DNA of 64,000 bases from Colwellia sp. (GTDB lineage: Bacteria > Pseudomonadota > Gammaproteobacteria > Enterobacterales > Alteromonadaceae), in contig JABSOZ010000018.1 in assembly GCA_013215295.1 (NCBI GenBank), positions 62,001 through 126,000 of the forward strand, written 5' to 3'. The position numbers were made by a program, and so were the translations under genes. The notes below the pieces were generated by a model. The model saw only the letters and a program-made list of their open reading frames with translations, was not told where the DNA came from and searched no databases. Numbering within the stretch: position 1 is the first letter of the stretch; every line of letters starts with the position of its first letter. Positions 1,168-58,291 of the stretch are shown here, piece after piece.

Positions 1168-2915
1168 AGTTCAGCGCCAATACTAAAATGAATACGCCAT
1201 GAAGGGTGTTCGTCGCTTAATGAATACCCTAAAGCAAACCGGATAGGCCCAATCGGAGAAAGATAATGAATGCCTGGGCCGATTGAATAAACAGGGTCTA
1301 ATTTATCACTATCATTAACACTACCTGCATCAACAAATAATGCCCCTCGCCACTTATTTGAGAAATAATACTGATACTCCAAACTAGCGACAATCATATT
1401 TGTACCACCAATAACAATTTCATCCTCTTGGTTAATATCTTCAGAAAGAAATACGTTAGGGCCAATCGATTGATAATCAAAACCTCGAATACTTTGATCA
1501 CCACCAGCATAAAAGCGTAATGAAGGTGACAGCTCCTCTTCAGAATTATCACTAATAATCACATAACCAAGCTCTAAGCGTGAAACGATACGGTGTTTTG
1601 GAGCCAGTAATGTAATATATTTCCAACGGGCGTTGAAACGTAAAAAAGATGTTTCTGAGGATAAACCGTCATAACTACCTTCTACGTTATAATAATGTAG
1701 AAAGCCGTTACTTGGATCGAGTAACGGTCCATCGCGATCAATATCAGACCACGTAAATCCTGGAATAATATAATTTCCATCATCGTAAATACCATCAGTT
1801 TGCCACTCTTCACTCAGATATCTCAAATATGGTTGTCGTAAAATATCGTTTTTCAGATATACACGTCCCAATTTGAAAGTAAAAAACCGACTCGTCAAAT
1901 CGCCATAATCATTTTTTTCCAGCTCCGTTTGTAATTGTAAAACATCATTATTGGGGTGCGACAATGGGATACTATAAATAAAATATCCAGTCGGATTAAT
2001 GGTTGAATAAGATAATCTCGTTTCTTGACGATGTCCGTGGCGATTTATTAACGGTGTTTTCCACCCAAAAGAAAACCTTTCTTTTGTGTCTGTTGCGTAG
2101 CCTAGTCCTAAATTTAATTGATGACGCTTTGTTTTTTCCAATGAAACATCGATAGGCAAGATGTTACTCATGCTGTTTTCTATTTTAGGTCGTACAACAA
2201 CATGACTGAAATATTGTGTTTTATCGAGTTCATTTTGCAAATTTTGTATCAATTTTTGTTGATAGAAATCACCTTCTTCAAAAGGTAGCATAGGTGTTAA
2301 TACACTAGCGTTTATGGTGAACTCATTAAATTCTATTTCACCAAACTTATAACGAGGCCCGCTGTTAAAGTGAACAAGAACGTCTGCTGTACCCAAATCT
2401 TTATGTATAGCTATAGTAGAGTTAGTAAATTTCCCATCAAAATAACCTCTCTCTAACCCAAAGGAGACCAAGTCAGTTTTAAATTTTTCATAAACACCAT
2501 GATGCAATATATCACCTGTAACCATTGGAACATTTTTGATCATTTTCTTAAAATCGTCATCTCCTAAAGCTTCACCCGTAAGAGTGATACGTACTGATTT
2601 AATTTTAGTTGGCGGATTTAACAACACCTTAATTGAGAGTATCCAAACATCTTTATCTAACTTTTTGGTGATCGAATGTGTAACGACTGCACGATAATAA
2701 CCTAATGCCTTAAGGGCATTTTCAGTCTGTTTGTTGGCTGTAAAAATAAAAGACGACCTTTCAATTTCATTTGTCGGTAATGTGCCCAAATACGCATAAA
2801 TATTTTTCATTAAATGGCTGGGTAAACCTTCCGAAACTTTAACAACAAGTGTATTGGATAATGCAAAAGGAGAGATTAATACAAATAGAATTAACAAGAT
2901 AAAACGATTAAACAT
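1164..2915 (-). CDS. tamA: TamA, outer-membrane Omp85-family protein
   Basis: TamA is the outer-membrane member of the TamA-TamB complex: periplasmic POTRA domains followed by a 16-strand Omp85 barrel. From the ATG at 2913-2915 the protein is about 583 residues, the usual size. A signal peptide (MFNRFILLILFVLISPFALS) is followed by POTRA-like sequence to about residue 265 and then the barrel, with the family motifs GGDQSIRGFDYQSIG and, near the end, GPIRFALGYSL. The reading frame extends upstream to a TTG at 2972, but the ATG at 2915 directly precedes a clean signal peptide and is preferred. The gene overlaps tamB by four bases. The barrel end (WRIHFSIGAEL) fits an outer-membrane C-terminus. 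Confidence 0.93.
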   Translation of the reverse strand: MFNRFILLILFVLISPFALSNTLVVKVSEGLPSHLMKNIYAYLGTLPTNEIERSSFIFTANKQTENALKALGYYRAVVTHSITKKLDKDVWILSIKVLLNPPTKIKSVRITLTGEALGDDDFKKMIKNVPMVTGDILHHGVYEKFKTDLVSFGLERGYFDGKFTNSTIAIHKDLGTADVLVHFNSGPRYKFGEIEFNEFTINASVLTPMLPFEEGDFYQQKLIQNLQNELDKTQYFSHVVVRPKIENSMSNILPIDVSLEKTKRHQLNLGLGYATDTKERFSFGWKTPLINRHGHRQETRLSYSTINPTGYFIYSIPLSHPNNDVLQLQTELEKNDYGDLTSRFFTFKLGRVYLKNDILRQPYLRYLSEEWQTDGIYDDGNYIIPGFTWSDIDRDGPLLDPSNGFLHYYNVEGSYDGLSSETSFLRFNARWKYITLLAPKHRIVSRLELGYVIISDNSEEELSPSLRFYAGGDQSIRGFDYQSIGPNVFLSEDINQEDEIVIGGTNMIVASLEYQYYFSNKWRGALFVDAGSVNDSDKLDPVYSIGPGIHYLSPIGPIRFALGYSLSDEHPSWRIHFSIGAEL

Positions 2916-3177
2916 GATGATAAATGACCAATAAACTTTTGAAAAACAATTGAGAAAATAACAACCCCGCAAGTAGGTATTAACTTACTGAGTTTCAAGA
3001 TAATAAACGCTCACAATAACTGTTATAACCGTTAATATTCCCATTGTTGCATTTAATTGGTGTGAGGTAACCCAGATATAACCATTAATTAAATCACTAC
3101 AACTATAGCAATACATTTGAAATAAGTTTAATTAGCGTTCAAAACACTCTCGTATGTCATTTAATTTGTTATTTCGT

Positions 3178-49961: not shown

Positions 49962-50135
49962 ATGAAGCATTTTGTTTTGTATCAGTTTAGTTCATCACTA
50001 TATCAATTAAATTATAAGGTCCACAAATCGTATTTAATTACTGGCTATACAGCCGTACGGGGCATAAAATCTGTAGCTTGTTTCCTATTGTTAAGCATGT
50101 GCTGTGCTTGCATAATATTTTTAAGGCGAAGATGA
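49962..50135 (+). CDS. Possible leader peptide of the hybrid regulator gene
   Basis: A 57-codon frame from an ATG at 49962 whose TGA (50133-50135) overlaps the ATG of the regulator gene (ATGA). It has one hydrophobic segment near the end (CFLLLSMCCACIIFL). The overlap hints at translational coupling, but codon use and composition are not convincing and no ribosome-binding site is seen. Could equally be chance. Confidence 0.25.
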   Translation: MKHFVLYQFSSSLYQLNYKVHKSYLITGYTAVRGIKSVACFLLLSMCCACIIFLRRR

Positions 50136-53100
50136 GATCTAAACAGCTTTTATTTAATTTGATGATTTTATTTGTTCTAGTTTTAAGTGTCTTTAACTCT
50201 AGCAGCTTTGCGTCAGCACCTCTCAACAACAATAAGCAGTCTATTAATTCTCAGCATACGCCTAGCTCATTAATATCCATGCCTACTGCGATTGTTGAAA
50301 TATCATCTATTAAAAGTAATCAAACTGACTGGAAAAAAGTTGTTTATGCTAAGGCTAACAGTTTAAAAGTTAAAGCGGGCCGTCCGATCGTTACCGCTTA
50401 TAGCCAAGCCCCGGTTTTGGCAGGGAAACCTAAGGTTACGGTCTTATCGCTTAAAAAACAAATAATCACGGCATCAAATGTACCGCTAGAGCTACCGTTA
50501 CGTCAAACCATTGATTATGCTCAAATCACTAAACAGATATACGTTGCTGAATCAATCGAAGTATTAGGGTTAAAACAAAAGGACGACTCCACTGACGACA
50601 TCCGCTACCTTAGTGTCGCTCAAGGCTTGCCCTCTGGATCAATTTATTCCATTTATTACGACAATGACAATAAACTCTGGTTAGGGACTAATGGTGCTGG
50701 TGTTTGTCAGTACGACGGTGTGCGATTACGTTGTTTTAATGAATCCAATGGTTTGAGTAACAATCGGGTGTGGCAAACGGTACAAGATTCAGTGGGTAAT
50801 TTTTGGTTTGCAACCGATCGTGGTGCAACTCGGTTTGATGGTGTCACCTTTGCTATATTCACAAAAGAACAAGGATTAGCCGATAATAAAGTGAATAAAA
50901 TTTTGGTTGCGAGCGATGGCACTATCTGGTTTGCAACTGATAACGGCTTAAGCCGTTTTGATGGCAAGGTCATGACTACTTACGGGAAGGATTCTGGTTT
51001 GCCAGATAGTAAAATTCTTTCTTTGTATGAAGACAATAAACAAATAATTTGGATTGGTACTGAAAAAGCGGGAGTCTCTCGATTTGATGGCAATCGTTTT
51101 ACTCACTTAAATCAGGAAATGGGTTTGTGTCGTGGTGCAATCTCAGCTATTGAACAAGACACGCTAAATCGTATGTGGTTTGCTTCTCACAGCGATGGCG
51201 TTTGTTACTATGATGGTGAAAAAATTGTCCACTTCACCACTAAACAGGGATTAATTGATAATAAAATAACAGCAATACATGTGAATAAAAATAATGGTGA
51301 TATTTGGTTTGGCACCGATGGCTCAGGTATTGTTCGCTTTGACGGTAAATATTTCACCACGACCAATAAGAGCAACGGTTTAAGTTCTCTTTATATAAGA
51401 GATATTATTCAAGATGATTTCGGCAACCTTTGGGTTGCCACTTATACCAACGGCATTAATAAGGTACCACTTTCATCGTTTAAAATTCACAATATTAATA
51501 CTGGCCTTGCCAATTTGCGTATCAGCGCACTAATGGCGGATGAAAAGGATAACGTTTGGCTTGGTACGTTTGGCGATGGGGTAGCACAATTTGACGGGGA
51601 CTTTTACCGGCAATTTACTACGAAGCAAGGACTAGTAAATGATATCGTCCATGCAATCATAGAAGATTCAAAGGGAAATATTTGGTTTGCGACTAGAGGT
51701 GGGGTCAGTAAATTCGACGGCGAATATTTCACCAATTACACTACGGATGATGGGCTTGCTGGGAATATGGTTCATGCACTTTTAGAAGATAGTGCTGGAC
51801 GGATCTGGTTTGCTACTCGCAGCGGAATAAGTCAGTTTGACGGCGAGAAATTTACCAGTTATTTCAATCAAAAGGAGTCATCAAACAATTGGTTTTTTAG
51901 TATTGCTCAAGATGATAGCAATAATCTTTGGTTTGCCAGTAATAGAGAGGGTGTTTATAAATTTGACGGCAAATACTTTTATCATATTGATGAGACCGAC
52001 GGCTTGGCTAATAATTGGGTTTACGCTATACAAATGGTTGGTACAGACCAAGTATGGTTCGGCACACGAAAAGGTATTTCTATTTTAAATAACCGTAATA
52101 AGCTCGCCAAACCAGAACACTTCCAAAATATATCAACAGCACAAGGCTTGTCTAGCAATATCGTTTTATCCTTTGTTGAAGCGGTGAATAAAGATCTTTG
52201 GGTGGGGACAGAAAATGGTATCAATAAAATTTCATTAGCCAATGTCACTGCGAAAAAGTCAACGAGGATAGAGCCTGAGGAATTTAAAATCAGGAGTTTT
52301 CTTCAATCAAAAGGCGATAAAATTCTTGATGTTAGTTTAAATACCGCTATTCGAACTAAGAATAATAAATTGTTATGGGGCTCCTCTGTCGGACTAGTTG
52401 AACTCGATTTGAACTCATATCATCATCGTCAAACCAAGCCGAAAATCGAGATTAGCGGGATTAGCTTGGCCGGCCAAGATATCAACTATTTGATTAGTGA
52501 AAAATCAAAGGGAAAACAAATTGAACCGATAAAATATAATGGATTATTTAAGACGAACCATTTTCCAATAGATTTGGAGCTGAGTCATAGTCTCAATGAT
52601 ATCGCATTCGATTATGTTGCCATCGATTGGCAGGCACCAGAACGACTTAGATACCAAATTAGATTATTAGGTTGGAACGATGATTGGAAGCGTTTTAATG
52701 AGCATAATAGCGTTGAATATCAAAACCTACCTCCAGGACAGTACGAGTTTAATGTCCGAGCCGTTAATGTGAACGGTATTATCAGTAAGGTAAATAAATA
52801 TGCGTTTACTATCCATCCACCTTGGTGGGAAACGTGGTGGGCATATTTCATCTTTGCCTCAAGTTTTATTGTGGCTGTTTTTTTAGGTTTTCAGATGCGT
52901 TTTAAACGTATTAATCAGCGCCAGCGAGCTTTTCAAAAAGCGAAAATGAATGCAGAGCTGATTATTCGGAAAAATGAAATGTTCGCCCACGTATCTCATG
53001 AGTTTCGTACGCCGCTAACTTTAGTGCTTGGACCAATCAATAATTTACTCAAAAAAGTAAAAAGCAAGGAGGAGAAACGCTCACTGTCCATGGCATCCTT

Positions 53101-54628
53101 GAATGCAAAACGGTTACTTCGTATGGTGGACCAACTGTTAGACTTGGCAAAACTCGATAATTTAGCAGCCAATGTTGATCACAATACCAACGTTAGTTTG
53201 GTGGTAGGTCAGCTCTACATGAGTTTATTGACATTATTTGAAGAGAAAAAAATTACCACCAATATAAAAATAGCAGATCACCTGTTTGCCAATATTCAAC
53301 ACGATGCGGCCGAAAAAATAATTATCAACTTAATAACTAACGCAATAAAATATACTAAACAAGGTGGTATGGTCGAGATTAACTGCTACCGAGAAAATCA
53401 AATGCTGCATTTATCTATTACAGATAATGGTATCGGCATCGCCGAGCAAGATTTAGAGAGAATATTTGAGCGATTTGTTAGAGTCCACGATATTGAGAAA
53501 GAGCGAGTACCGGGCGCTGGAATAGGGCTTGCTTTAGTTAAAGAATTAGTGGAGAGGTACAATGGTACTATGCAGGTTGAAAGTGAGTTGGGTAAGGGCA
53601 CTTGCTTCACTGTGTGTTTTCCACTGCTTAGTGCAATACCACATTTAGAAGAAATATCAGTAATCAATGAAGACTATGTTGAGCAGGAAAAAACCATATT
53701 AGAGCAGGAAAAAACCATATTAGAGCAGGGTTATCTTAACATCAATGAAAATGCTAAGACTGTTGCAGAATTTGAAGCGGAAATACCCAGCAAACTTGAA
53801 GCGAGCAACTCATCCATCACCTCGCTTACTAACAAGCCGATCGTGTTAATCGTCGAAGATCATCCCGAAATGCAAGCTTATATTGCCGAAGGACTCTCAC
53901 TCGATTTTAACTGCCTGTTGGCAAATGATGGCAATGAAGGCATTAAACTGGCAATGGAAGTCATTCCCGATCTTATTATAACTGACCTGATGATGCCCAA
54001 CCGAAATGGTTATGAATTAGCCAGATTGCTTAGGCAGGAGATGAAAACTGCTCATATTCCCATTGTCATGTTAACCGCAAAGGGCGATGACGAAAGCCGG
54101 ATGGAAGCATGGAAAACGGATATTGATGAATATATCTGTAAACCTTTTGATCAGGACGAATTGAGCTTAAGGGTGCGAAATTTACTTAATATTCGGTTAC
54201 TAATAAGCCAAAGGATCGGTCAGCGGCTGAACAGCCTGAGTAACTTTACCGATAGTATGTCTGAAGAGGCGGTATCTAGTCGTTTGGTCGGAGTGTCCGA
54301 TAAAGACAAGCGCTTTATGAATCAATTGGACGAGTTGCTAGCATTACACTTTCACGATCCAGAGCTAAAGGCAGAGTTGATTTATCCTGAGCTTGCCATG
54401 AGCGAACGTCAATTTCATCGTAAAATGAAGGCCTTGTTGGCGCAAACATTTTCTGATTATTTAAGGACCTTTCGTCTAGGTAAAGGAGCGCTATTATTAA
54501 AACAAAATCTACCGGTCACGCAAGTGGCCATGGACTGCGGATTTTCGACGCAAAGTTATTTTAGCCGTTGTTTTAAAGCGCAGTACTGTCTCTCACCCAA
54601 ACAATATGCCCAGCAGGGCAAAGCGTAA
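50132..54628 (+). CDS. Hybrid two-component regulator (HTCS): periplasmic propeller, kinase, receiver and AraC HTH in one chain
   Basis: A 1498-residue one-chain signalling protein from the ATG at 50132, which follows AAGGCGAAG. The signal peptide ends about residue 29. A periplasmic part has ~12 two-component-propeller (reg_prop) units with phrases such as NKLWLGTNGAGVCQYDG, TIWFATDNGLSRFDG and NIWFATRGGVSKFDG (about 150-720), then a Y_Y_Y domain (about 820-890). The membrane helix is at about 905-925. The HisKA has His956 (VSHEFRTPL), the HATPase is at about 1055-1165, the receiver has Asp1285 (ITDLMMP) and the AraC HTH ends the chain (AMDCGFSTQSYFSRCFK). Such regulators usually control polysaccharide-use loci in Bacteroidetes and occur in Alteromonadales. 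No such locus is adjacent here. Confidence 0.95.
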   Translation: MRSKQLLFNLMILFVLVLSVFNSSSFASAPLNNNKQSINSQHTPSSLISMPTAIVEISSIKSNQTDWKKVVYAKANSLKVKAGRPIVTAYSQAPVLAGKPKVTVLSLKKQIITASNVPLELPLRQTIDYAQITKQIYVAESIEVLGLKQKDDSTDDIRYLSVAQGLPSGSIYSIYYDNDNKLWLGTNGAGVCQYDGVRLRCFNESNGLSNNRVWQTVQDSVGNFWFATDRGATRFDGVTFAIFTKEQGLADNKVNKILVASDGTIWFATDNGLSRFDGKVMTTYGKDSGLPDSKILSLYEDNKQIIWIGTEKAGVSRFDGNRFTHLNQEMGLCRGAISAIEQDTLNRMWFASHSDGVCYYDGEKIVHFTTKQGLIDNKITAIHVNKNNGDIWFGTDGSGIVRFDGKYFTTTNKSNGLSSLYIRDIIQDDFGNLWVATYTNGINKVPLSSFKIHNINTGLANLRISALMADEKDNVWLGTFGDGVAQFDGDFYRQFTTKQGLVNDIVHAIIEDSKGNIWFATRGGVSKFDGEYFTNYTTDDGLAGNMVHALLEDSAGRIWFATRSGISQFDGEKFTSYFNQKESSNNWFFSIAQDDSNNLWFASNREGVYKFDGKYFYHIDETDGLANNWVYAIQMVGTDQVWFGTRKGISILNNRNKLAKPEHFQNISTAQGLSSNIVLSFVEAVNKDLWVGTENGINKISLANVTAKKSTRIEPEEFKIRSFLQSKGDKILDVSLNTAIRTKNNKLLWGSSVGLVELDLNSYHHRQTKPKIEISGISLAGQDINYLISEKSKGKQIEPIKYNGLFKTNHFPIDLELSHSLNDIAFDYVAIDWQAPERLRYQIRLLGWNDDWKRFNEHNSVEYQNLPPGQYEFNVRAVNVNGIISKVNKYAFTIHPPWWETWWAYFIFASSFIVAVFLGFQMRFKRINQRQRAFQKAKMNAELIIRKNEMFAHVSHEFRTPLTLVLGPINNLLKKVKSKEEKRSLSMASLNAKRLLRMVDQLLDLAKLDNLAANVDHNTNVSLVVGQLYMSLLTLFEEKKITTNIKIADHLFANIQHDAAEKIIINLITNAIKYTKQGGMVEINCYRENQMLHLSITDNGIGIAEQDLERIFERFVRVHDIEKERVPGAGIGLALVKELVERYNGTMQVESELGKGTCFTVCFPLLSAIPHLEEISVINEDYVEQEKTILEQEKTILEQGYLNINENAKTVAEFEAEIPSKLEASNSSITSLTNKPIVLIVEDHPEMQAYIAEGLSLDFNCLLANDGNEGIKLAMEVIPDLIITDLMMPNRNGYELARLLRQEMKTAHIPIVMLTAKGDDESRMEAWKTDIDEYICKPFDQDELSLRVRNLLNIRLLISQRIGQRLNSLSNFTDSMSEEAVSSRLVGVSDKDKRFMNQLDELLALHFHDPELKAELIYPELAMSERQFHRKMKALLAQTFSDYLRTFRLGKGALLLKQNLPVTQVAMDCGFSTQSYFSRCFKAQYCLSPKQYAQQGKA
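53681..53729 (+). repeat. 21-bp tandem duplication in a linker
   Basis: The unit GAGCAGGAAAAAACCATATT plus A occurs twice (53681-53701, 53702-53722), then GAGCAGG. It encodes EQEKTIL twice in the linker between the ATPase and receiver domains and keeps the frame. Confidence 0.9.
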
Positions 54629-55051
54629 TTATTAGTTCGATTTTTGTTGTCTAAAACGTTCAACTATTGGCATTCAAGGGGTGAACTTTAAAACTCTGTA
54701 CCTTTAGAATACACAGTGAACAGTCATGTTCACTTTCTTATCTACCCATTTCCTACTTTAGTCATTATTTCTAACGTTTAAAATCACTTTTAATGTTAAT
54801 TGATTAAATTCAACTGGTTAAGTTTTATTTATACCCTTACCTCTTTCTCTGTACGTTCAAAAAGGCCGGTTAATACATGTTTTTGGCAGACGGGTAAATG
54901 TTTTTAGACTGGTTATTCGTCATAATTTATGTCGAAAAAAACACTTTCACTGGGAAAATAGAATTTGTGAATTTATACCGATTAACGATTTTCCCCGTTA
55001 ATTATGGCGGAGGGTTTAATAGCTACCTAAAGCCTTTTTGGGAGGTTTAGA
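54629..55051 (+). promoter_or_regulatory. Control region copy 1, upstream of small-ORF operon
   Basis: This 423-base region has the same layout as 56872-57336. It contains a perfect dyad GTGAACA-GTCA-TGTTCAC (54716-54733). About 165 bases later come two ATGTTTTT boxes about 22 bases apart, in ACATGTTTTTGGCAG and AAATGTTTTTAGA (within about 54874-54912). A GGAGG ribosome-binding site then lies at 55041-55045. It probably carries the promoter for the tiny-ORF cluster. No sigma-54 -12 box is present (TAAA replaces TTGC after TGGCAG). Confidence 0.6.
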
Positions 55052-55228
55052 GTGAATAAGATATTATCTTTGAATTTCAAAAATCATCCTAAATATGAGT
55101 CGGTAATTGCTGAAGTGTTGCGAGGCGAATTTGCCCCAGTATTAATGAATAAAGCACTGCAAAATACGCAAGATGCATCAAAAGCACAAGCACATTATGT
55201 GCTGTTAAAACTGCAAAGTAAAACATGA
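55052..55228 (+). CDS. Small protein of unknown function (58 aa)
   Basis: A 58-codon gene starting at GTG with an excellent GGGAGG ribosome-binding site seven bases upstream. It begins MNKILSLNFKNHPKYESVIA and ends YVLLKLQSKT. It is polar and helical, without a signal or membrane segment. Its stop overlaps the next ATG (ATGA, 55225-55228), a strong sign of a real operon. No family recognised. Confidence 0.65.
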   Translation: MNKILSLNFKNHPKYESVIAEVLRGEFAPVLMNKALQNTQDASKAQAHYVLLKLQSKT

Positions 55229-55413
55229 GAAAAAAATTGCCTTATTGTCAAACACCACCACCCATTTATATCGTTCAGAACTGGCTGTCGTTTATAAATG
55301 AATCTGACGAGGAAGATAAATATGCTAATAAAAAGGCGTTCAACTTATTAGTGTTGTTTTTTGGCAGTCTAGAAAATGCAAACAAGTATGTTGAGCACAA
55401 TAAATCGATTTAA
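55225..55413 (+). CDS. Small protein of unknown function (62 aa)
   Basis: A 62-residue protein, MRKKLPYCQTPPPIYIVQNW onward, with an acidic middle (NESDEEDKYANKK) and an amphipathic C-terminal half (LLVLFFGSLENANKYVEH). The ATG overlaps the stop of the preceding 58-residue gene, and its own stop directly abuts the next ATG. No family recognised. Confidence 0.6.
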   Translation: MRKKLPYCQTPPPIYIVQNWLSFINESDEEDKYANKKAFNLLVLFFGSLENANKYVEHNKSI

Positions 55414-55683
55414 ATGGAATATATCGTGAATACCAAAATAACAATAATTATCCTTCTCTTATTTTTAACCCTTACTGTCATATTAGACATAATTACTTCG
55501 ATTACTTTTACCACCTACGCTGTTGTTGGCAGCAGTTTAACTTATATTGCTTGGTTAGCAGATAAGAAGGAAAAAGTACGCATAAAAAAGCTAAAACAGC
55601 GCCAATTAGAACGAATGGCAAGGTGGGAAGAACTGTATATGTACACACCGCGAAGTAAACGTAATAAGGCCACTAAGAATTAA
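55414..55683 (+). CDS. Small membrane protein with basic tail (89 aa)
   Basis: An 89-residue protein with two membrane helices (about 8-26 and 30-47), followed by a very basic cytoplasmic tail (KKEKVRIKKLKQRQLERMAR, and RSKRNKATKN at the end). ATG immediately follows the stop of the preceding gene. No family recognised. The basic tail could contact nucleic acid or anionic lipid; that is speculation. Confidence 0.6.
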   Translation: MEYIVNTKITIIILLLFLTLTVILDIITSITFTTYAVVGSSLTYIAWLADKKEKVRIKKLKQRQLERMARWEELYMYTPRSKRNKATKN

Positions 55684-55802
55684 TATGAGATCATGCTCTG
55701 TTTTTTATTAAAACATTAAACTTCAAGTGTTTGGGAAGAATTAGCTAATAGAATAGGTTGAAATTATATGGTTAAAACAATTAAATTGACAATAACAAAA
55801 AA

Positions 55803-55961
55803 ATGGCTAACACCGTATTTTTATTGTTGATCATTATATTAACTTTGCTGGTTCATTATGTTGTTACCTTAAACAAAATTAACGACGAATTAGCAGAAAG
55901 CGCTTTGATTGAAGTACCTTTATCTGAATACACCAACCAAATTAGCAATTGCTCAGTTTAA
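55803..55961 (+). CDS. Small single-helix membrane protein (52 aa)
   Basis: MANTVFLLLIIILTLLVHYV begins a 52-codon frame with one membrane helix and a short acidic external part (NDELAESALIEVPLSEYT). Ribosome-binding site weak. Its position in line with the other tiny genes supports it more than the sequence does. Confidence 0.45.
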   Translation: MANTVFLLLIIILTLLVHYVVTLNKINDELAESALIEVPLSEYTNQISNCSV

Positions 55962-56023
55962 ACAAAGGTTATCGATGGAGAAGTTTATTGATAAAAGTCT
56001 TTTTACGGTTGAGCATACTTTAT

Positions 56024-56131
56024 ATGAGTAAAAAGAGAGTGGCAGGAATAAAATCACGATACTCACTTAGCCTCATATTAACGCGCCACTACTATTTACT
56101 GGTGCAAATAGTATTGGTATTAAAAAGATAA
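56024..56131 (+). CDS. Possible micro-protein (35 aa)
   Basis: MSKKRVAGIKSRYSLSLILT begins a 35-codon basic frame with a hydrophobic end. The frame is open upstream to 55949. Low confidence. Confidence 0.25.
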   Translation: MSKKRVAGIKSRYSLSLILTRHYYLLVQIVLVLKR

Positions 56132-56135
56132 TTTC

Positions 56136-56213
56136 ATGTTTTTAACGGTCAAAAAACAGCTTTACCAGTGGTTGTTGGCGGTGGTGCAAACTGTGATCTT
56201 TGTTTGGCGCTAA
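56136..56213 (+). CDS. Possible micro-protein (25 aa)
   Basis: A 25-codon frame, MFLTVKKQLYQWLLAVVQTV onward, just before the first PEP-CTERM gene. At the equivalent place before the second PEP-CTERM gene a similar hydrophobic frame exists but has no usual start codon. Low confidence. Confidence 0.2.
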   Translation: MFLTVKKQLYQWLLAVVQTVIFVWR

Positions 56214-56253
56214 TCCAAGATAAATGAAAGATAAAATAACTAGGACAAATAAA

Positions 56254-56871
56254 ATGAAATGTAAATTGTTAAACGCGACTCTGGCCGGATTATTATTGTC
56301 AGCCACTTGTTTAGCTAATCTAGCTAATGCAGGATTGATCGTTGGGTCAACTATGGATACTAGTATAGATACCATTAGCGGATATGAATGGCTGGATTTT
56401 AGTTTTACCGTAGGCATGACCTATGACGAAGTTTTAGCCAGTAGTTACGTAGTATCCGATGGTTACGAAATAGCCACCAGTGAACAAATTAAAGCGTTGT
56501 GGGTAAGTGCAGGAAGGTTTACCGATGTTACCGTCGCAGCGAATGCTGTCTTGGATAAATTAGGCTGTATGTCGTATTTGCACGGTGGTTACAATTGCGA
56601 CCAAGTAGGGCAAGAGTGGACGGGAGCATTTTATCAAAGCGCTACTGCACAGTACGACATTTACCTGGTAAATACACTGGAGGGGATATCGGGTTCTTTT
56701 CTAGAGTATTGGGTCGGTAACATTGATAAAAATAGCTCATTTCGCGCCGATATCGCCGCGTATTTAGTACGCACCCCTGATGTTCCATCAGAAGTACCAG
56801 AGCCTTCAACCCTTGCTATTTTTGCCTTAGGTCTGATGGGTTTAGCGGTACGTAGATTCAAAAAGCAATAA
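56254..56871 (+). CDS. PEP-CTERM sorted protein 1
   Basis: A 205-residue exported protein from the ATG at 56254. Signal peptide MKCKLLNATLAGLLLSATCL is followed by a cleavage site near LANAGLI. The C-terminus is a PEP-CTERM sorting signal: VPEPSTLAIFALGLMG, then RRFKKQ. Exosortase processes such tails and the proteins are linked to the cell surface or exopolysaccharide matrix. The body has the ISGYEWLDFSFTVGMTYDEV motif frequent in Alteromonadales PEP-CTERM proteins. Its leader and start region closely resemble the second PEP-CTERM gene (57337), so the two arose by duplication. No exosortase gene is in the window. Confidence 0.93.
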   Translation: MKCKLLNATLAGLLLSATCLANLANAGLIVGSTMDTSIDTISGYEWLDFSFTVGMTYDEVLASSYVVSDGYEIATSEQIKALWVSAGRFTDVTVAANAVLDKLGCMSYLHGGYNCDQVGQEWTGAFYQSATAQYDIYLVNTLEGISGSFLEYWVGNIDKNSSFRADIAAYLVRTPDVPSEVPEPSTLAIFALGLMGLAVRRFKKQ

Positions 56872-56900
56872 AAAAAATCATTTCATCAAACTGATATTAG

Positions 56901-56921
56901 GCATCTGTCGAGGTGCTTTTT
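56901..56921 (+). terminator. Terminator after PEP-CTERM gene 1
   Basis: Stem GCATCT/AGGTGC (one G-U pair) followed by TTTTTG. The same stem occurs after PEP-CTERM gene 2. Confidence 0.65.
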
Positions 56922-57336
56922 GTTTTGAGCTTATCGTCATAACAATAGCCAGTGAACAGTCATGGTCATTTTCCTAACGGGCCATTTAGTGCGCTAGTCA
57001 TCATTGCTAATACTTAAGGGTATTATCTATATTAATTGTTTTATTTCAGTTTGTTAGTATTTTTACATGGAGTTGAATTCTATTCTAAAACTTTAATTTG
57101 GCCGGTTTTTACATGTTTTTGGCAGGTGGTTAAATGTTTTTAGATTATATCTTCGGCATAATATATTTCGAATAAAAGTCGTGTCGAATGCTCTTTTTTA
57201 TAAGCGTTTATCGCAGTATTTAGGTATCTATAAAGGAAGTTTAAATCATTATTTTTGCGCTATTTGCCATTATTTTTTCAGTACTGGTTTCACTCAAATC
57301 TAGCCAAAATTAAAGATAAAAACTAGGATAAATAAA
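56922..57336 (+). promoter_or_regulatory. Control region copy 2, upstream of PEP-CTERM gene 2
   Basis: Counterpart of 54629-55051: GTGAACA-GTCA-TGGTCAT at 56952-56969 (imperfect dyad) and the two ATGTTTTT boxes near 57110-57142. Before the second PEP-CTERM gene the tiny-ORF operon is missing, and only a decayed hydrophobic frame without a start codon (57248-57313) stands there. Confidence 0.6.
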
Positions 57337-57951
57337 ATGAAATTTAAATTTTTAAACACGGCTCTAGCCGGATTAATATTGTCGGCAAGCTGTCTCGTTA
57401 CTGAGGCAAACGCAGGACTAATCGAAGTTAAATGGGATACCACAGTAGAAACGTCAATTAATTGGGCTCCCACCACTACGATTGGCGAGGCGATTAGTTT
57501 TGTAATCACCTTAGATAATGGACAATCGTCGGCATTAAACCAAACGTGGGACAAAACTAATTTTGTCCAATTTAGAATAGAATCCGCAAGTGGATGGCAA
57601 TTCAGCTCAGATTCGATATATTTACGTTCTAGTAGCGGTGTATTCGCAACTGATAGTAGTGGGAATGTTACATCGGCTGGTAGTTGGAAAGGTTTTTCGA
57701 GCAGTATAGCATCGTGGGACGCGGGATTAGACGCGGGTAAGTGGTACAACAACGGGGTTAATGGCGTTGCATACAATTATGATTATTCCATGGGGTTGTC
57801 TGTAACAAACGTGGAGGACAATCTTGAAGGCGCCAACTGGTACGTATCGAGTGTGCAACCAAGCTCCAATGTCCCTGAGCCTTCAACCTTAGCTATTCTT
57901 GCATTAGGTATGATGGGGTTAGCATCACGTCGATTTAAGAAGCAAGCTTAA
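57337..57951 (+). CDS. PEP-CTERM sorted protein 2
   Basis: A 204-residue exported protein. Signal peptide MKFKFLNTALAGLILSASCL ends near TEANAGLI. The body (DTTVETSINWAPTTTIGEAI and SAGSWKGFSSSIASWDAGLD) is beta-rich. The C-terminal tail is a PEP-CTERM signal (VPEPSTLAILALGMMG, RRFKKQA). The leader and the AGGATAAATAAA pre-start sequence match PEP-CTERM gene 1, but the bodies differ, so they are paralogues in the export/sorting ends only. Confidence 0.93.
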   Translation: MKFKFLNTALAGLILSASCLVTEANAGLIEVKWDTTVETSINWAPTTTIGEAISFVITLDNGQSSALNQTWDKTNFVQFRIESASGWQFSSDSIYLRSSSGVFATDSSGNVTSAGSWKGFSSSIASWDAGLDAGKWYNNGVNGVAYNYDYSMGLSVTNVEDNLEGANWYVSSVQPSSNVPEPSTLAILALGMMGLASRRFKKQA

Positions 57952-58291
57952 GTTAGTCTCACAATCTACCCCACGGTTATAAAACATGAAGCATCTGTCT
58001 GTTGGTAGGTGCTCTTTTTGATCCTTATTACCTCAACCAACAACACCCGAACGTCCGTTGTGAGCTTAAACCTGCCTCACAAGCGAGCAGAGAATCTCGG
58101 CTAATATTGGCCAAAAATGTATCACGCCTTCACACAATCTTAATGGCAGCAATGTGGTATTGTTGCCTGTGGAGTTTCATATCAAAACTCTAACTTATGT
58201 CACATACACGACATAAACGCTAGGACTTACTTGTTGCGTTTGAATTGCTAATACCCTCGATAATAGATAGCAATGAATTATCAGGCTTAAT
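57952..58291. other. Gene-free region after PEP-CTERM gene 2
   Basis: Contains the terminator at 57991-58019 and the hairpin at 58280-58300. A 63-codon frame (58002-58193) begins inside the terminator stem and is not considered a gene. Confidence 0.6.
57991..58019 (+). terminator. Terminator after PEP-CTERM gene 2
   Basis: GCATCT/AGGTGC stem with a 10-base loop, then CTTTTT. Same stem as at 56901-56916. Confidence 0.65.

Follow-up and report, generated by a model that had tools for sequence, protein, structure and literature searches.

Which regulator controls a tandem pair of genes for PEP-CTERM proteins, and what part do the three small genes in front of one of them play? The question is raised by a 64,000-nt stretch of a Colwellia sp. 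contig (JABSOZ010000018.1, positions 62,001 to 126,000 of the forward strand; hereafter, the window), in which a gene for a hybrid two-component regulator (HTCS) is followed by two units: unit 1 with three small open reading frames (sORF1, sORF2, and sORF3) and PEP-CTERM gene 1, and unit 2 with PEP-CTERM gene 2. The answer that we prefer, with our confidence evenly divided, is that a private duplication and rewiring may have brought both PEP-CTERM units under the local HTCS, the leader of unit 1 carrying a cassette of three small genes. A sequence-only reading of the same DNA had put the emphasis elsewhere, proposing that the small proteins help in the export, sorting, or matrix assembly of the neighboring PEP-CTERM protein.

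Two copies of a PEP-CTERM transcription unit

Judged by the alignment of its two copies, the PEP-CTERM transcription unit is a tandem duplicate. The control DNA of unit 1 (54708-54941) and that of unit 2 (56944-57177) are identical at 161 of 234 positions (69%) without a gap, which bears out the earlier observation that the same control region recurs before a second PEP-CTERM gene lacking the small ORFs. The region encoding the signal peptide (79% over 107 nt) and the sorting-tail DNA (81% over 75 nt) are also common to both units, and the palindrome AGTGAACAgtcaTGTTCACT in the control DNA is kept at 18 of 20 positions. The end of the control block and the start of the gene block that the units have in common are about 1.28 kb apart in unit 1. 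In unit 2 the distance is about 0.13 kb, and nothing resembling the small ORFs is present. The small ORFs may have been inserted into unit 1 or lost from unit 2; both directions fit.

The tails of both large products score above the cut-offs of PF07589 (Table 1) and TIGR02595 and show the C-terminal PEP motif, the hydrophobic helix, and the basic end. In a pairwise comparison, the two proteins are clearly alike at both ends and weakly so in the body. Gene 1 most likely starts at 56254, because the start context there is common with gene 2. The genome also encodes an exosortase (PF09721 at G000:C34:123901-124650, 209.6 bits, above the cut-off), and both proteins would be trimmed by exosortase and delivered to the surface. 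In the tails and in the exosortase of the genome, there is a resemblance to the known PEP-CTERM/exosortase (EpsH) system (PMC1569441). The operons of that system are mostly single-gene with long upstream non-coding DNA, whereas window gene 1 is preceded by three small genes.

A comparable build is seen elsewhere in the genus. Among six PEP-CTERM loci of sister species (L008, L009, L010, L016, L021, and L022, two of them in G004), the upstream DNA is alike in 14 of 15 pairs (67-78% over about 380-656 nt), and the protein starts examined diverge past the signal peptide; constant control, signal, and tail sequences surround differing bodies, as in the window pair. The sorting-tail DNA (57871-57945 and 56794-56868 in the window; L008-L026) is alike at about 71-87% over 54-105 nt in all six genus genomes. 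One PEP-CTERM gene, in G002, seems to be split into two reading frames (L012 1501-1827 and an upstream piece). An Rfam search (E-values up to 0.5) of the window region (L007) and four genus loci gave a cobalamin riboswitch in L016 as its sole match (2801-2944, reverse strand; above the gathering score).

Comparison with the usual PrsR/sigma-54 control

The 2006 survey by Haft and colleagues (PMC1569441) described proteobacterial PEP-CTERM genes as largely one sigma-54 regulon: before 99 of 167 such genes stand a motif ending in TTTACA, a spacer with a mean of 62.8 nt (32-92 nt), and a -24/-12 site. The window pair was set against 13 further PEP-CTERM genes of the genus, drawn from six genomes; the window's own genome supplied two of the 13. 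A DNA search had given 33 outside places; 19 were retrieved, of which 13 yielded a gene by the regular expression for the tail and six were dropped. The starts in L012, L014, and L019 were chosen by the signal peptide. Scoring used what we take to be the sigma-54 consensus.

The PrsR/sigma-54 arrangement precedes 11 of the 13 genes. In ten of them, a GTGTC-like motif ending in TTTACA is followed, at a spacing of 61-62 nt, by a sigma-54-like site, and one more (L022) has TATACA; the arrangement was not seen in L014 and L015. The first motif begins with GTGTC, apart from ATGTC in one site and GTGTT in another. Taken alone, several of the -24/-12 sites are weak: among 500 shuffles, 40 to 220 matched those of L010, L013, L019, and L020. 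What makes the arrangement convincing is the fixed spacing, not the single scores.

Neither gene of the window pair is preceded by an intact arrangement of this kind, and a GTGTC-type first motif is missing. The sequence TTGGCAG is present in both units but with TAAA at -12; at this place, TTGC, TTGT, or ATGC stands in the 11 sites of the genus. Both window genes, which lie beside an HTCS gene, seem to have left the usual control, and have perhaps moved to that of the HTCS.

A candidate HTCS operator

The HTCS gene lies just upstream of unit 1. Its product contains, above the Pfam cut-offs, a Reg_prop propeller, a Y_Y_Y domain, HisKA/HATPase, a receiver, and an AraC-type helix-turn-helix. Each control region holds ATGTTTTT twice, with the starts 21 bp apart. 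A candidate -10 element, CATAAT, follows the repeats, so that the second half-site would fall on the -35 position. Predicted HTCS motifs of Bacteroides are likewise direct repeats, with on average 21 bp between the sites (PMC3878776).

Three results support the site. An 8-bp direct repeat at period 21 is present in both units, and an equally long run arose in 100 of 10,000 shuffles (1%) of the unit 1 region. Over a 34-nt site, the two units agree at 31 positions, whereas in the sequence beyond the palindrome and the 78-nt core they agree at 79 of 136. Finally, a 32-base pattern around the ATGTTTTT pair, searched with up to three mismatches in 295 genomes, had two matches, both at this locus. 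We regard the repeat statistics as moderate and the support that the sequence lends to HTCS control as fair.

Several observations weigh against such control. When conservation was shuffled, the best 34-nt block was reached in 478 of 10,000 trials (4.8%). The leader of unit 2 contains a longer period-21 run, CATTATTTTT at 57247, which argues that repeats of this sort come about by chance in the T-rich DNA of this locus. As paralogous copies, the two operators do not count as independent sites, and the palindrome may serve a different regulator. No orthologue of the HTCS was found in 40 relatives, with at most 63 candidates scored per genome (the best was 44% identical over the receiver and helix-turn-helix part; the genome's own paralogues, 38-39%), and co-variation of regulator and site could therefore not be followed. 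A scan of genome contigs with the HTCS, from which the window's own record may have been excluded, gave 30 loci at 20-35% best-segment identity, by title mostly from Bacteroidota, and no orthologue.

The extent of the transcript of unit 1 bears on the same reading. In the stretch from the end of sORF3 to PEP-CTERM gene 1, the hairpin scan detected no terminator-like site on the same strand, so that a single transcript is plausible; a weak terminator-like match lies inside sORF3. Against a common message, the gap of 0.57 kb between sORF3 and PEP-CTERM gene 1 leaves room for a further promoter.

Table 1. Features of the HTCS and PEP-CTERM locus in window coordinates.
Feature	Position	Strand	Remarks
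HTCS gene	50078..54628	+	1516 aa from first start codon; just upstream of unit 1
Palindrome, unit 1	54715..54734	+	AGTGAACA-gtca-TGTTCACT; stem-loop; may be a regulatory site or the HTCS gene's terminator
Proposed HTCS operator, unit 1	54877..54905	+	ATGTTTTT at 54877 and 54898, starts 21 bp apart
Candidate -10 CATAAT, unit 1	54921..54926	+	putative; not among promoter-like sites of the scan
sORF1	55052..55228	+	58 aa; GTG start; GGGAGG six nt upstream; predicted two-helix protein
sORF2	55225..55413	+	62 aa; ATG start; 4-nt overlap with sORF1; predicted two-helix protein; widespread family
sORF3	55414..55683	+	89 aa; ATG start; abuts sORF2; hydrophobic N-terminal half, basic C-terminal tail
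sORF4, doubtful gene	55803..55961	+	52 aa; hydrophobic; codon score 0.12
Micro-ORF before PEP-CTERM gene 1, doubtful	56137..56214	+	25 aa; translation alone
PEP-CTERM protein 1	56254..56871	+	PF07589, 32.4 bits (cut-off 20.7), scanned from 56224
Terminator-like hairpin, unit 1	56899..56918	+	hairpin scan
Palindrome copy, unit 2	56951..56970	+	imperfect; by comparison with unit 1
Proposed HTCS operator, unit 2	57113..57141	+	ATGTTTTT at 57113 and 57134, starts 21 bp apart
Candidate -10 CATAAT, unit 2	57157..57162	+	putative, from position
PEP-CTERM protein 2	57337..57951	+	PF07589, 30.8 bits (cut-off 20.7)
Terminator-like hairpin, unit 2	57990..58013	+	hairpin scan

Three families of small proteins

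The sequence-only reading had described the three small ORFs as overlapping or abutting and the first as having a strong ribosome-binding site; both descriptions are correct (Table 1). The codon scores per codon, 0.16 for sORF1, 0.06 for sORF2, and 0.08 for sORF3, exceed the 95th percentile of 131 shadow ORFs (0.054), those of sORF2 and sORF3 staying below the 99th (0.112), and all three are within the range of 18 long training genes (0.03-0.25). Relatives with intact frames were found for each of them. The nonsynonymous substitution rate (dN) is below the synonymous rate (dS) in all seven pairs among these relatives, with dN/dS from 0.08 to 0.44 in six pairs and saturation of dS in the seventh; when the window copies themselves were included, four comparisons came out at or near saturation. 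Because each belongs to a family that has relatives in other genera and shows dN below dS, we conclude from these comparisons that sORF1, sORF2, and sORF3 are real genes. They come from three unrelated, unnamed families, which show signs of purifying selection.

The further suggestion that possible micro-ORFs continue up to the PEP-CTERM gene fared less well: the 52-aa and 25-aa ORFs are possible but unsupported genes, with no relative of sORF4 among the retrieved loci, whole genomes having been searched for neither. Two of the three small proteins had also been taken for membrane proteins. By hydropathy, this applies to sORF3 and to the doubtful 52-aa ORF, not to sORF1 and sORF2, for which single-sequence models predict two helices (mean predicted local distance difference test scores of 66 and 78, respectively).

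Neither the window sORFs nor the scanned relatives matched a Pfam or NCBIfam family above its curated cut-off. There was no significant PHROGs match (best E-value 0.01, from a relative), nothing below an E-value of 0.1 for sORF2 and sORF1 against PDB sequence profiles, and no Foldseek match below 0.001 for the sORF2 model.

The distributions of the three families were determined by whole-genome searches in samples of genomes, which differ from search to search. With the single protein, sORF2 was found in 24 of 295 genomes of the order, counting its own genome and one probable chance match (in G492, within a 616-aa frame). With profile A2, the family appeared in 70 of 295 genomes of the taxonomic family and in 25 of 52 genera, at 94 places, with up to four copies per genome and three in the window's own. 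The sORF3 family gave matches in 14 of 295 genomes at E-values up to 0.01; those beyond the window that are strong lie in G076, G270, and G008, the last being a row of the profile. Ten weak sORF3 matches (1.9e-4 to 0.008) were not accepted; a match in G032 was rejected as an ORF that overlaps a protease-like gene in another frame, and one in G042 as a different, longer protein. For sORF1, profile A4 found 5 of 162 genomes and eight places, three of which are rows of the profile, and single-protein searches found 2 of 295 genomes and 3 of 246; in the search of 295, one match, in G456, was rejected as chance because it lies, by eye, inside a phosphoesterase-like protein. Across these differing samples, no genome besides that of the window had all three families together. 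A DNA search of five sister species gave no match over the small genes, though PEP-CTERM genes are present there.

Genomic contexts of the small-protein families

Had the small proteins a dedicated role in sorting, their relatives might accompany sorted proteins elsewhere, and the sequence-only reading had proposed to look for such co-occurrence. Ad hoc regular expressions for PEP-CTERM and GlyGly-CTERM tails found none in the 25 sORF2-family and three sORF3-family loci outside the window, with flanks of about 2-6 kb a side; the 25 comprise 23 of the 93 outside places of profile A2 and two from the single-protein search. Shorter sORF2-family loci showed no VPEP tail besides the window's own. 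The contexts of the small-gene families are stable within genera and differ among them. By names given by eye, sORF2-family genes stand with a DAHP-synthase-like gene in g35 (which we take to be Shewanella), a metallo-hydrolase-like gene in g5, and parAB-like genes in g62. In G076 and G270, the sORF3-family gene lies behind one whose SpoIIAA/DUF7793-like match is weak and does not reach the cut-off.

The sORF1 family provides a hint of a link to sorted surface proteins. Two of its seven non-window members, both in G160, directly follow genes for giant proteins with GlyGly-CTERM-like tails on the same strand: one giant of 2499 aa ends 72 nt before the small gene, the other, of 2013 aa, 20 nt before it (70 nt with a nearer ATG). 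Both giants end in a GGSM-hydrophobic-basic tail, presumably the GlyGly-CTERM motif, and these tails match the C-terminal part of the rhombosortase-dependent family NF038111, far below its full-length cut-off. Such a tail occurred in one of 186 ORFs of at least 150 aa in 280 kb from three G160 contigs. The G160 sORF1 relatives thus follow tails of the GlyGly-CTERM/rhombosortase kind (PMC3237569), whereas the window has PEP-CTERM tails. In both copies, a hairpin-like sequence lies between the giant and the small gene. The giants look paralogous, so that the pairing with sORF1 may be one event; the two G160 units are probably one duplicated unit.

Other members of the sORF1 family have different neighbors. 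Four of the five copies in g14 (L167, L180, L181 12961, and L182) precede a histidine kinase and a response regulator on the same strand; the domains of the L180 kinase, including TPR, were tested, and the other g14 kinases were recognized by eye. One g14 copy, in G150, adjoins the gene of a type 2 lanthipeptide synthetase, LanM (L181 5324-5497 and 5876-9208; L179 962-1150). In the same neighborhood, a short, Cys-containing, precursor-like ORF was noticed by eye. A PEP-like tail 3.3 kb from the LanM-adjacent copy was picked up by regular expression alone, and NCBIfam gave no family for it; another, weak one lies about 5.3 kb from the L180 copy (E-value 5.8e-4, below the cut-off).

Large propeller-type sensor genes stand tail to tail with sORF2-family genes at L046 1171-4524 and L049 84-4037 (the latter by eye). 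We do not claim a tie between the small families and Reg_prop sensors: the regular expression found one in 1 of the 25 sORF2-family loci and missed L049, which, like L168, was recognized by eye.

Proposed mechanism and alternatives

How, then, might the locus work? The HTCS would sense a glycan-like ligand outside the cytoplasm and phosphorylate its own receiver domain, and its AraC-type end would bind the two ATGTTTTT half-sites. As to the ligand, none of nine scanned window proteins matched a glycan-degrading family, and three of the nine matched nothing. Class II AraC-type activators activate from a site at -35. Similarly, the nearer half-site, lying on the -35 position, would allow activation of the CATAAT promoter in each unit. 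Unit 2 would yield PEP-CTERM protein 2, and unit 1 a common message that encodes sORF1, sORF2, and sORF3 ahead of PEP-CTERM protein 1. After export, both PEP-CTERM proteins would be trimmed by the exosortase, whose gene lies elsewhere in the genome. As for the products of the small genes, they would most likely be small helical and inner-membrane accessory factors, produced in response to the same signal and not dedicated to sorting.

It is quite possible, if short of probable, that the small genes are passengers, unrelated to one another, that came to lie in the long leader of one of the duplicates. They would then be co-transcribed because of their position alone and have no functional link with the PEP-CTERM protein; this is compatible with HTCS control. 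Their families are dispersed, in contexts that differ but are stable within genera, none of the 25 and three outside loci of the sORF2 and sORF3 families lies near sorted surface proteins, and unit 2 manages without small genes. However, the tight overlaps and the strong ribosome-binding site on sORF1 resemble a kept operon, and the sORF1 relatives behind GlyGly-CTERM-like genes in G160 also speak against mere passengers.

A second alternative concerns the promoter. A decayed sigma-54 promoter in the window pair is possible; we consider it unlikely that the control DNA common to both units is a PrsR/sigma-54 promoter, decayed or non-canonical, and not an HTCS target. About 50 nt upstream of TTGGCAG stands TTTATA in unit 1 and TTTACA in unit 2, within the published spacer range of 32-92 nt (PMC1569441), the unit 2 site scores 9/13, the same as three accepted genus sites, and C at -12 is likewise absent from 4 of the 11 accepted genus sites. 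These points count against HTCS control as well: because of the motif pieces about 50 nt apart and the four genus sites without the -12 C, we gave this alternative more weight and HTCS control less. On the other side stand TAAA at -12 in both window sites, the missing GTGTC start, and the genus spacers of 61-62 nt.

That helping PEP-CTERM protein 1 through export, sorting, or matrix assembly is the dedicated task of the small proteins, in line with the first proposal, appears less probable still. The small genes do precede the PEP-CTERM gene with no obvious terminator between, and the G160 relatives directly follow giants whose kind of tail is rare there. However, the sORF2 and sORF3 families have no link to sorted proteins in the examined loci, the three families occur together in the window's genome alone (in samples that differ), PEP-CTERM gene 2 has no small genes, and the sister species have PEP-CTERM genes with no DNA match over the small genes. 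Of the original interpretation, then, the small genes stand as real and their single transcript as plausible, whereas the idea that their products serve specifically in export, sorting, or matrix assembly is not borne out, the hint from sORF1 aside. That the small proteins take part in export or sorting is a conjecture to which the sequence lends little support.

A bolder version of HTCS control appears improbable to much the same degree: a glycan-sensing HTCS would have captured two PEP-CTERM genes from the PrsR/sigma-54 regulon and would drive them along with a small-protein cassette, and sORF1 would found a family of small helical partners for surface proteins with C-terminal sorting tails, both exosortase (PEP-CTERM) and rhombosortase (GlyGly-CTERM) clients. 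Very improbable is an origin of the small genes as remnants of a phage, a toxin-antitoxin system, or another mobile element, since their small size and overlaps and a weak resemblance of sORF1 to an antitoxin family in Pfam that stays under the cut-off are set against the lack of a significant PHROGs match or of any viral contig matching sORF1-3, the lack of a plasmid or phage record for sORF2 (sORF1 and sORF3 were not searched there), and the contexts of the relatives, which are stable within genera.

Relation to known systems and implications

Control of the duplicated units by the HTCS would resemble the HTCS regulons of Bacteroides in the regulator architecture and in a candidate direct-repeat operator, with 21 bp between sites, adjoining the regulator gene. 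In contrast to those regulons, which target SusC/SusD and glycan-degrading loci (PMC3878776), the proposed targets here would be PEP-CTERM and small genes in a proteobacterium-like genome. With the RpoN-dependent pepA of Aquincola (PMC9850573) the locus would share a PEP-CTERM gene with a dedicated promoter, but the start of pepA has been mapped and is accompanied by -24/-12 motifs, an intact set of which the window pair lacks. In the literature covered, the open-licence PMC full texts, no paper mentions PEP-CTERM together with "hybrid two-component".

If the proposal is true, an HTCS-controlled PEP-CTERM pair would tie the output of surface proteins to a specific outside signal, and sorted surface proteins would be able to switch control while keeping signal peptide and tail. 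In addition, three unnamed small-protein families become testable, among them the sORF2 family, present in 70 of the 295 sampled genomes of the taxonomic family.

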